DNA of 64,000 nucleotides from SAR92 clade bacterium H231 (lineage in GTDB: Bacteria > Pseudomonadota > Gammaproteobacteria > Pseudomonadales > Porticoccaceae), in contig JAOALC010000004.1 in the NCBI GenBank assembly GCA_025153775.1, positions 434,001-498,000 of the forward strand. The letters run 5' to 3'. A program made the translations under genes and the position numbers. Shown one piece after another: positions 13,000-30,619 of this stretch. The notes beneath the pieces are model-generated. The model saw only the letters and a list, made by a program, of their open reading frames with translations, ran no database searches and was not told the origin of the DNA. Position 1 is the first letter of the stretch, and each line of letters starts with the position of its first letter.

Positions 13000-14553
13000 T
13001 TAGTAATCTCGATCTTCGAACGACCCTTTGCGTCGCGCCATAAAGTCCAGCAATGCTTCATCAACCGCCGGGTCAATGGCTGGGGCCTGATATTCGTTGA
13101 GCATTTTTTTCCACAGAACATTGGCACGCTGGGCTGTATCCAGTGAGCCATCCACCTGCCACTGCTCATAGCTGTTGTTATCGGCAACGGTTGAACGGTA
13201 GAAAGCCGTTTCAAAGTTTTTCAGGGTGTGGGCTGAGCCCAGATAATGTTTGCCCGGGCCCACTTCACGAACCGCATCCAGGGCCTGCCCATTCTCGGAC
13301 ATATCCATACCGCCCAACAGCACTGAGATCATGCTGGCCTGGTCGGCATCCATAATAAATTTCTCATAGCCCATGGCCAGACCACCCTCCAGCCAGCCTG
13401 CGGTATGTAACATAAAGTTGACTCCAGCCAATGCTGAGGTCTGCAATGTGTTGGCCGCTTCATAGGCTGCCTGGGCATCTGGCAGCTTGGAGCCGGTAAG
13501 GCCACCACCGCTTCTGAAGGGCACGCCAAGGCGGCGAGCCAGTGCTGCGGCTGCATAGATCACCTGGCTGGGCTCTGGGGTACCAAAGGTCGGTGCACCG
13601 GTGGCCATAGACACAGCTGCGGCAAAGGTGCCAAAGATCACTGGTGCCCCGGGACGACAGAGCTGGGTAAAGGCAATGCCCGCCATGGCTTCAGCCAGAA
13701 TCTGGGTAACAGTGCCTGCGGTGGTCACCGGCGACATGGCACCGGCAAGAATAAAGGGTGAAATCACTGTCGCCTGATTATTGCGCGCATAGACCTTGAG
13801 AGAACCGAGCATGGTGCCATCAAAGGTCATGGGTGAATTCACATTGATCAGACTGGTTAATACACAGTTTTGATCGACAAACTCGTCGCCAAATACCAGC
13901 TTGGCCATATCCACTGTGTCCTGGGCGCGCTCATGGTGGGTTACTGAACCCATCAATGGCTTGTCGCTGTACTTGAAATGGCTGTAGACCATATCGAAGT
14001 GACGCTTGTTTACCGGCAGGTCTACTGGCTCACAGATGGTGCCGCCAGAATGATGGATACCTGGGGCCATATAGGCCAGTTTGACAAAATTATTGAAGTC
14101 GTCGATGGTCGCGTAGCGTCGGCCCTGGTCAATATCATGGACAAAGGGTGACCCATAGGCTGGTACCAGTACGGTGCGCTTGCCGCCAATAATCACATTG
14201 CGTTCCGGGTTGCGGGCATACTGGGTATATTCACTGGGCGCGGTGGCCTGAATAATGGAACGGCACAGCCCCTTAGGGAAATGCACTCTGGTGCCCTGCA
14301 CATCGGCGCCCGCTTGTTTCCACATCTCAAGGGCTTCGGGATCATCGAGAAAATCGATACCGATCTCTTCCAGCAGAATATCCGCATTGTCTTCAATCAG
14401 CTGCAGATTCTCTTCGCTGAGATACTCAACGTAGGGAATTTTGCGCTCGATAAATGGCTTGGTTGCAACCACCGCATTAGCGCGGGCCTCACGGCGCCCT
14501 TCACGGCCACCAGCATCTCGCCCTGCTCTTCTTCGCCCAGTTCGTTCTGTCAT
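13000..14553 (-). CDS. Non-pyrrolysine trimethylamine-methyltransferase-family protein (MttB/MtgB-like)
   Basis: A 517-residue MttB-superfamily corrinoid methyltransferase. The frame is continuous with no in-frame amber codon, so it is a non-pyrrolysine member like MtgB (DSY3156), which demethylates glycine betaine. Seen: IERKIPYVEYLSEENL near 35-50, CEPVDLPVNKRHFDM, GSVTHHERAQD, VNSPMTFDGTML, FGTPEPSQV and GGGLTGSKLPDAQA blocks. The N-terminus has an Arg-rich tail of ~26 residues (nine Arg), absent from the compact core. Its neighbours, the corrinoid protein and a dimethylglycine-dehydrogenase-like enzyme, suggest a quaternary amine substrate, most likely glycine betaine. Carnitine or another betaine remains possible. 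Confidence 0.93.
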   Translation of the reverse strand: MTERTGRRRAGRDAGGREGRREARANAVVATKPFIERKIPYVEYLSEENLQLIEDNADILLEEIGIDFLDDPEALEMWKQAGADVQGTRVHFPKGLCRSIIQATAPSEYTQYARNPERNVIIGGKRTVLVPAYGSPFVHDIDQGRRYATIDDFNNFVKLAYMAPGIHHSGGTICEPVDLPVNKRHFDMVYSHFKYSDKPLMGSVTHHERAQDTVDMAKLVFGDEFVDQNCVLTSLINVNSPMTFDGTMLGSLKVYARNNQATVISPFILAGAMSPVTTAGTVTQILAEAMAGIAFTQLCRPGAPVIFGTFAAAVSMATGAPTFGTPEPSQVIYAAAALARRLGVPFRSGGGLTGSKLPDAQAAYEAANTLQTSALAGVNFMLHTAGWLEGGLAMGYEKFIMDADQASMISVLLGGMDMSENGQALDAVREVGPGKHYLGSAHTLKNFETAFYRSTVADNNSYEQWQVDGSLDTAQRANVLWKKMLNEYQAPAIDPAVDEALLDFMARRKGSFEDRDY

Positions 14554-28325: not shown

Positions 28326-28832
28326 CTACTCCTCCCGCTCTAAATAGCGACGACCCAGATGAAAGGAACCCACCAACCCTGCCAGTAGCAGCATTGCGGC
28401 AATCTCGACAGCCAGCACATAGGGTCCAAACAGTGCCAACCCAACCTCTTTGGCGCTCACTGCCTGAGTGGACACAGGTCCTTCGATAGTGGAGATCATA
28501 TACAGCAGTTCTGCAAACAGCAGCAGCGACAGCACTGTTGGGCCGGCCCATATACTAGGCTGCAGGAGTCCCCGCTCCCGTGCATCGCCCTCTTCTCCCA
28601 GGTTGAGCATCATAATGACAAATACAAACAGCACCATGATGGCGCCGGCGTAGATAACTATTTCTAGGGCAGCGGCGAAGGGTGCGCCGATCAGGAAGAA
28701 GATCACGGCCACGGCCAGTAGGGAGACGATTAGGTAGATGAGAGCATGGATGGCGTTGGCTCTGGTCATGGCCAGTACTGTGGCTACTAGGGCTATGGTG
28801 GCGGCTATGTAGAAGAGGGTTATCTCAAGCAT
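28326..28832 (-). CDS. nuoJ: NADH-quinone oxidoreductase subunit J
   Basis: A 168-residue, five-helix membrane subunit of complex I. The LEIVIYAGAIMVLFVFVIMMLN block, containing the pi-bulge helix region of NuoJ, is diagnostic. AGGA lies about 9 nt upstream of the ATG. The gene is separated from nuoI by 294 nt, unlike the other nuo junctions here (overlaps or a few nt), because a palindromic repeat element lies between them. Expression of nuoJKLMN may depend on read-through of that structure. Confidence 0.96.
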   Translation of the reverse strand: MLEITLFYIAATIALVATVLAMTRANAIHALIYLIVSLLAVAVIFFLIGAPFAAALEIVIYAGAIMVLFVFVIMMLNLGEEGDARERGLLQPSIWAGPTVLSLLLFAELLYMISTIEGPVSTQAVSAKEVGLALFGPYVLAVEIAAMLLLAGLVGSFHLGRRYLEREE

Positions 28833-28991
28833 GGCTTGAATCCTGTTTGGGCTTGGTGTGGGTTGGAAATGGGGGCAGCATGGCTCTGGGTTCTACTCCG
28901 TTGACAGACTGTGAATACCTCCGTGTAAGCTCGAGGCCATTGATCTTGATCTCAGCCACATCAATTACCCGGAACGAAGCTACCGAAACTA

Positions 28992-29105
28992 AGGCTATAG
29001 GTTTCCTAGGCCTTTCTGTGACCGTGGCCAGCAGGGATGCTGGCCTCGAGTCTACAGGGAAGTATTTACGACGTGTCACAGAAAGGCCTAGGAAACCTAT
29101 AGCCT
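28992..29105. repeat. Palindromic repeat element with 31-bp inverted repeat between nuoI and nuoJ
   Basis: A perfect 31-bp inverted repeat: left arm 28992-29022 (begins AGGCTATAGG), right arm 29075-29105. The 52-nt interior has its own 8-bp hairpin (GGCCAGCA-GGGA-TGCTGGCC, 29026-29045). A further CTCGAGGCC at 28930-28938 can pair with GGCCTCGAG at 29042-29050, so the element may fill most of 28843-29126. It contains short open frames on both strands that look like by-products. It resembles a miniature inverted-repeat or extragenic palindromic element; I see no second copy in this window and no clear target duplication. Confidence 0.85.
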
Positions 29106-29126
29106 GACAATCAACGCTCCAAACCC

Positions 29127-29642
29127 TCATGGCAACAAACTCTTAGTATCAATAGGCCGAGCCTCATTCCGCCCCTCACCCTTATCCTTAAAAGCCGTCT
29201 GCATCCCAGACACCCGATAAAAATTATAGTCCGGATACTTACCCACCCCATTAATCAGCAAATTCTCCTTCTCATAAACCATGTTTTGACGATCGTACTC
29301 ACACATCTCGAAATCGGGCGTCAGCTGAATTGCATAGGTAGGACAGGCCTCCTCACACATGCCGCACATAATGCAGCGAGAAAAATTAATGCGGAAAAAC
29401 TCCGGATACCAGGTGCCGTCCTCTCGAGTATCTTTCTGCAGAGCAATACAGTCCACCGGGCAAACCGCGGCGCACAGATTACAGGCCACACAGCGCTCCT
29501 CTCCGTCCGGATCCCGGGTCAACACAATTCGTCCGCGATAGCGAGGAGCAAGATAAGGCATCTCCTCCGGATACTGCACAGTGTCAGCTTTAGTGAAGCT
29601 GTGTTTAAAGATTTCCCACATGGTTCGCAGTTCACTTAACAT
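29127..29642 (-). CDS. nuoI: NADH-quinone oxidoreductase subunit I (2 x 4Fe-4S)
   Basis: Peripheral-arm subunit carrying clusters N6a and N6b. Both 4Fe-4S motifs are intact: [12 protein letters not shown] and [12 protein letters not shown]. The 171-residue length uses the ATG at 29642, which overlaps the nuoH TAA stop (TAATG); the longer upstream frame lies inside nuoH. It passes electrons from NuoG toward NuoB and quinone. The long spacer after it holds the inverted-repeat element. Confidence 0.96.
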
Positions 29643-30619
29643 TAGACAGCGCCCTCCATCCATAACAACACCGCGCCGGTAATCACCAGATTAACCAGCG
29701 TAATCGGCAACATCACCTTCCACCCCAGAGACATCAGCTGGTCATATCTGGGACGAGGAATCGCCGCCCGCAACAGCACAAAAAAATTAATCACCAAGAA
29801 CACTTTAAGCCCAAACCAAGCCAGCGGAGGCAGCCATGGGCCAATTACAGCAGGCCCCATCCAGCCCCCAAAAAACAGAGTCACAATCATGCAAGAGATA
29901 AGCATCAGGCCCAGATACTCCCCGAGCATAAACATAGCGAATTTCATGCCGCCATATTCAGTGTGAAAACCCGCAGTTAACTCATGCTCCGCCTCAGGCA
30001 AATCGAACGGCAAGCGGTGGCTTTCGGCAATACCCGCAATCACAAACACCAGTAAACCCAGGGCCTGAGAAAAACAAAACCAGACATCGGATTGGGCCTC
30101 AACTATGTCCACCAGACTAAAGCTGCCCGACATCATCACCACACCCATTAGCGATAGGCCCATAAAGACCTCATAGCTAACCATCTGTGCCGCAGAGCGC
30201 AAGCCACCCAGCAGGGCATATTTATTATTGGAGGCAAGGCCACCCAGCAGCACGCTGTAAACCGCCAGCGAAGTCATACCCAAGAAAAACAGCAGCCCAA
30301 TATTGACATCGATAATCATCACATCCGGCGCAAAAGGAACCACCGCAAAACCCATCATCATCGCCACTACAATGGCCGTCGGCGCAAAAATAAAAACTAC
30401 CTTGTCGGCAAAGGGTGGCACCCAATCATCCTTGGTCAGTAACTTGATCATATCTGCCAACACCTGGCCTATGCCGAAAGGACCCAGACGATTAGGGCCA
30501 TATCTATCCTGCCAAAAGCCCAGCAAGCGTCGCTCCCACCAGGTCAGCACAGCAGCACCGCCGACACCACCCAGCAATATAGCCAGCGCCAACAGCACTG
30601 GCATCATTAACTCAGACAT
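29642..30619 (-). CDS. nuoH: NADH-quinone oxidoreductase subunit H
   Basis: Membrane subunit forming the quinone-access chamber, 325 residues from the ATG at 30619, with eight or more hydrophobic helices. Seen: [43 protein letters not shown], and the conserved acidic loop [23 protein letters not shown], all hallmark NuoH segments. The start overlaps the nuoG end by 8 nt. The frame could begin 24 nt earlier, but the MSELMMP start matches family N-termini better. Confidence 0.96.

Follow-up and report, generated by a model that had tools for sequence, protein, structure and literature searches.

A probably mobile palindromic repeat with a YPAL/RU-2-like core in the nuoI-nuoJ spacer of SAR92 clade bacterium H231

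The window analysed here, a stretch of 64,000 nt from SAR92 clade bacterium H231, carries the nuo operon on its minus strand, running from nuoA (38041) to nuoN (23199). The identities of nuoH to nuoK were confirmed with Pfam, and those of the remaining genes were taken from gene order and length. The nuo genes overlap or are separated by at most about 31 nt at every junction other than nuoI-nuoJ, which had been described in a first-pass annotation as the sole long spacer of the operon. Two palindromic elements, e1 and e2, were recognised in this spacer (Table 1). Elsewhere in the window, the Rfam family PYLIS_3 matched positions 13401-13500 (minus strand) inside an uninterrupted 517-aa MttB-like ORF (13000-14553, minus strand). 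As this ORF has no in-frame TAG, it apparently represents a homologue that manages without pyrrolysine.

Table 1. Features of the nuoI-nuoJ region (window coordinates) and loci with variant cores.
Feature	Position	Strand	Basis
nuoI ORF	29127-29663	-	Pfam
nuoJ ORF	28326-28832	-	Pfam
nuoI-nuoJ intergenic spacer, 294 nt, mostly occupied by the element pair	28833-29126	-	Flanking ORFs, Pfam
Element e1, 114 bp (arm, 52-nt core, arm); core-forward on the nuo mRNA strand	28992-29105	-	Inverted-repeat search; model R1
e1 arm, 3′ arm in mRNA	28992-29022		31 bp, perfect complement of 29075-29105
e1 arm, 5′ arm in mRNA; begins about 21 nt past the nuoI stop codon	29075-29105		Complement of 28992-29022
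Conserved core strand ACGTCGTAAATACTTCCCTGTAGACTCG	29047-29074	-	Near-invariant in 31 diverse elements; YPAL/RU-2 match 26/30 nt
Small hairpin TAC..GTA with TCCC loop, within the conserved core strand	29053-29064	-	
Nested 8-bp hairpin GGCCAGCA-GGGA-TGCTGGCC	29026-29045		Read from sequence; covarying helix 3
Element e2 remnant, one arm and about 34 nt of core; core-forward on the plus strand	28872-28939	+	Whole e2 in G021; YPAL-core match
Residual inner spacer of the e1/e2 pair	28940-28991		Comparison with G021
Tract about 98 % identical to congener G011; flanks mostly 75-92 %	28741-29228		Identity comparison; nuoI tree
Loci with core variants carrying an insert of about 50 nt	L207:2992-3148, L026:2070-2188, L222, L223, L252, L257		

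The arms of e1 are 31 nt each, 100 % complementary and 52 nt apart, and the nested hairpin lies between them (arms at 29026-29033/29038-29045). The perfect 31-bp inverted repeat with a nested 8-bp hairpin claimed for this spacer is thus real. Element e2 was missed at that stage. It is half-deleted in the window and opposite in orientation to e1, and a weaker inverted match (76 %) between 28902-28939 and 29041-29078 is its trace. As the congener G021 carries a complete e2 at the nuo site (L017/L025), the complete insertion is a pair, of which the window retains a full e1 and half of e2. Judged from this comparison, the nuoJ-proximal element has lost half its length in the lineage of the window, and in the congener G013 the outer halves of both elements appear to have been fused by deletion. 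For the minus-strand RNA of the whole spacer we predicted a fold of -129.5 kcal/mol (z -8.46). None of 200 shuffles was as stable, so the fold is far beyond chance, and the very stable RNA stem proposed earlier holds at the level of prediction.

From 31 equal-length elements we built a covariance model, R1, which matched e1 at G000:C4:462997-463100 (minus strand) with 109.9 bits. The search of the genome and its relatives for further copies, proposed in the first-pass annotation, resulted in six copies on four contigs of the source genome. Of the 36 relatives, 17 had copies, as did 32 of 185 genomes of a class sample and 15 of 200 genomes of a phylum sample, all counts being lower bounds because the filters were strict and few candidates were scored per genome. 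The 15 genomes are all Gammaproteobacteria, and no copies were found outside the class in the phylum sample. The element is therefore not a unique sequence conserved at this site in distant relatives, which would have pointed to a cis-regulatory RNA instead of a repeat. Among the matches listed, the exact core pattern occurs in more than 100 stretches, from Rheinheimera, Marinobacter, Halopseudomonas, Stenotrophomonas, Shewanella, Nitrococcus, Aquisalimonas, Cellvibrio and others. Carriage by phages was rejected, as viral contigs contained no exact core match. A plasmid search gave two weak matches, and 5 of 5426 E. coli genomes had matches, four of the five on plasmids, which suggests rare plasmid-borne transfer of YPAL-like cores. 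Such cores were noticed on the E. coli wastewater plasmids NZ_CP058751, NZ_CP058883, NZ_CP067312 and NZ_CP067266. Many of the copies in congeners lie at orthologous sites, so recent mobility within the genus is not demonstrated. The genus also has other abundant repeats, of about 110 nt and 35 nt, with many copies per genome (L245:3232-3430).

In the alignment of 31 elements, hardly any variation is seen in the strand ACGYCGTRAATACNTCCNTGTAGNCTCG, whereas the sequences of the long stem and of the 8-bp hairpin change freely but remain paired. The elements of this alignment had been selected for pairing. Of the cells of paired positions, 93.1 % are paired, against 59 % in shuffles. Both sides have changed in 25 of 26 arm pairs and in 7 of 8 hairpin pairs, with a covariation score of 0.849, compared with 0.196 when shuffled and 0.118-0.193 when slid. 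In a test on 120 exact cores that were not selected for pairing, 62.5 % had at least 18 of 24 arm pairs of the Watson-Crick type, a level reached by 0.6 % when arms were swapped between elements. An element is built of a fixed strand of about 28 nt with the small TAC/GTA hairpin and of the variable 8-bp hairpin, closed by a long and largely locus-specific stem. Core variants with an extra hairpin insert of about 50 nt (GGTCGC...GGCATCC...GCGACAC) were seen in several species (Table 1).

Neighbouring elements follow a rule of orientation. Of 48 pairs of neighbours separated by less than 400 bp, the order '+-' (core-forward then core-reverse) accounts for 42, '++' and '--' for three each and '-+' for none; several loci of G025, G027 and G017 in this count had been chosen as pairs, but irrespective of orientation. 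The e1/e2 pair of the nuo spacer obeys the '+ then -' rule. Solo copies between co-directional genes have no bias relative to transcription (29 sense and 26 antisense). Based on crude ORF calling, which also put 20 units inside ORFs, the gene context is co-directional in 72 cases, convergent in 28 and divergent in 12, so that elements are rarer between divergent genes. The median distance from the upstream stop codon is 51 nt in the 72 co-directional cases, compared with about 21 nt after the nuoI stop, and elements are probably tolerated near upstream stop codons. A location close to upstream stop codons was reportedly noticed also in the original YPAL study.

The junction between nuoI and nuoJ was compared among relatives, as had been suggested earlier. 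In most congeners it is a short gap without the element. On the nuoI tree the element is limited to one supported clade, in which 7 of 10 rows carry it, and two changes are needed to explain this distribution. Between G000 and G021, whose nuoI genes are 90.9 % identical, 8 of the 31 pairs of the nuo arms changed on both sides with pairing kept and two changed on one side, compared with 2 differences over the 52 nt of the core. Reconstruction of the empty site with L205 and L245 gave gapped or rearranged alignments, from which no clean junction or target duplication could be read. The high identity to G011, whose nuoI groups with that of G021 on the tree, suggests that a short stretch around the element was exchanged by gene conversion or recombination, both assemblies being drafts. 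By overall inspection of the alignments, not window by window, no obvious comparable identity peak was seen at other element loci. The nuoI gene of G011 (L005/L224) is split by a frameshift, which may be real or an error of assembly.

The arm mismatches differ between the strands. Read on the core-forward strand, A.C mismatches outnumber G.T (185 vs 60) and C-containing pyrimidine pairs (YY) outnumber G-containing purine pairs (RR) (181 vs 45). The direction is the same in solos and in both pair members, although for minus pair members A.C vs G.T alone is not significant (p 0.11), and the p-values of these comparisons overstate independence because the elements are related by descent. The asymmetry persists or rises under stricter pairing thresholds, and the swapped control is much nearer to balance (651/571 and 927/739). 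On the core-reverse strand the same positions read as G.T, G.A and G.G, which are better tolerated mismatches. Folding of mRNA cannot easily cause this bias, since solos are random in orientation and a pair brings both orientations into the same transcript. We infer that it is the core-reverse DNA strand whose folding matters and that the bias points away from mRNA folding; alternatively, a mutation process specific to one strand, and not selection, may account for part of the asymmetry.

To place the element among known repeats, we compared its core with a Y. pestis RU-2/YPAL copy (PMC2759123) and found four mismatches over 30 nt (26/30) and a local score of 40, the maximum in 1000 shuffles being 27. 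The Rfam family RF02770 (Ysr224) contains the core. In four related loci its matches coincide exactly with the element, though they stay under the gathering score, and it gave no match at E<=1 on the window copy. As RF02770 misses the window copy and models one Yersinia sRNA, not the YPAL family, the link to YPAL is limited to the shared core. In a literature search on core strings, only the RU-2 paper was relevant. YPAL is listed for Yersinia and Erwinia carotovora in PMC2229807, which gives 3-26 bp for the target duplications, reports both empty and filled sites and mentions that mRNA stability may be affected. Like YPAL/RU-2, the elements described here are dispersed, multicopy and intergenic and have internal inverted repeats, the same core strand and a hairpin in the same place. 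However, YPAL is a unit of about 168 bp reported only from Yersinia and Erwinia in the literature we found, whereas our elements have long, nearly perfect and largely locus-specific arms, often form oriented pairs and range across the class. REP/BIME sequences (GTAG or CGTC REPs) are likewise palindromic and extragenic, with inverted dimers, tandem arrays and GTAG at the hairpin foot, but REPs measure 20-40 bp (PMC3733652), whereas the units here are about 100-170 bp long (at least 104 alignment columns), with a constant unpaired core, variable stems and no adjacent RAYT. Bacterial MITEs such as ERIC are also small palindromes, non-autonomous and for the most part located between genes, and co-transcription is possible; they conserve terminal inverted repeats, whereas here the centre is conserved and the arms vary. 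Integron attC sites are recognised by shape as a folded single strand, with one strand favoured and with variable paired arms. The likeness to attC is only in how the elements might work, since the conserved part here is apical, not terminal, and no R/L boxes were noticed.

Several other explanations were considered. The first-pass annotation proposed an attenuator, processing or stabilising site that sets the ratio of peripheral-arm to membrane-arm subunits, i.e. a cis-regulatory RNA selected to adjust NuoA-I to NuoJ-N. The very stable RNA fold just past the nuoI stop would suit such a role, as would the reported changes of mRNA levels by the related YPAL, ERIC and NEMIS palindromes (PMC2229807, PMC2267715). 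We nevertheless consider it improbable, because most congeners do without the element at this junction, the element lies also at unrelated loci, and solos are oriented at random relative to genes. Moreover, the nuo strand has no terminator-like or sigma-70-like promoter site within 28840-29126, where no hairpin with the U-run of an intrinsic terminator was found; the one terminator-like match is on the plus strand at 28825-28839, outside the element. The arm mismatches of the core-forward strand, which is mRNA-sense here, are mostly A.C and Y.Y, not G.U. The proposed control of subunit ratio thus found no support.

Mobilisation as a REP/BIME by a RAYT (Y1) transposase is likewise improbable. 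The GTAG tetranucleotide before the hairpin, the inverted pairs and the tandem arrays are BIME-like, and the source genome has one Y1_Tnp gene, but the flanks of Y1_Tnp loci lack the element core. G011, G013, G017 and G021 carry the element without Y1_Tnp, G003 has Y1_Tnp without the element, and several copy-rich genomes lack the gene; in the class sample, counted by hand, Y1_Tnp is present in 24 of 32 element genomes vs about 59 % of the rest. With no adjacency to elements and inconsistent co-occurrence, this transposase was rejected as a candidate. The arms could also be inverted duplications of local target sequence made at insertion by snap-back synthesis, which would agree with the pairs read from G025 and G027, where every copy has its own arms, and with the nuo arms, which have no further match anywhere in the source genome. 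By the same lack of a match, copying of the arms from elsewhere in the genome was rejected. Against snap-back synthesis, which we regard as unlikely, stand the arms common to copies at different loci within the lineages of Rheinheimera, Nitrococcus and Halopseudomonas, and the arms of orthologous copies, which drift in concert.

We consider it likely that the nuo spacer holds a dispersed, non-autonomous mobile palindromic repeat with a core homologous to YPAL/RU-2, perfected by DNA hairpin processes. The earlier impression of a non-autonomous mobile repeat gains support from the copies on four contigs, the class-wide spread and the presence or absence at nuo among congeners. The insertion would have taken place in an ancestor inside one subclade of the genus. 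The inserting enzyme probably recognises the folded core-reverse single strand via its core and shape, not via the sequence of the arms. Two processes may keep the arms matched: template switching within the hairpin, by which a change in one arm is copied to the other, and selection against copies that fold poorly. Template switching that homogenises inverted-repeat arms and inverts the spacer is described in PMC8604942, and the same arm-to-arm template copying in E. coli quasipalindromes is described in PMC7202029. The nuo transcript presumably reads through the element and forms a very stable stem. An effect of the element on nuo mRNA is possible, and any such effect on stability or processing would putatively be a by-product.

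More tentatively, and with clearly less confidence, the elements may represent a class-wide family of mobile repeats for which the folded shape of a single DNA strand is the recognition signal, with a fixed core, arms that vary freely yet are compensated and a strict '+/-' rule, which are moved or processed by a putative single-strand DNA enzyme other than RAYT. No mobilising enzyme was found from RAYT/Y1 co-occurrence, in element flanks or in widely spaced pairs. Several widely spaced '+ ... -' pairs were examined and no autonomous copy was recognised among them: L057 holds a KAP NTPase ORF, and L130 and L131 apparently contain ordinary metabolic genes. At L296:1640-2832, a 294-aa DUF4357 ORF lies between '+ ... 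-' elements with nearly the same core and inner hairpin. Its N-terminus looks GIY-YIG-like by eye, but Pfam finds no such domain. The ORF was rejected as a mobiliser, as no elements accompany its homologues at the other loci retrieved and these homologues occur in only 3 element genomes of 9; it could be cargo or coincidence.

These results widen the known range of a Yersinia repeat to the class as a whole and provide a natural data set of DNA palindromes evolving with near-complete compensation. The strand asymmetry of their mismatches helps to tell selection at the DNA level from selection at the RNA level, and knowledge of the substrate would allow a search for the mobilising enzyme.
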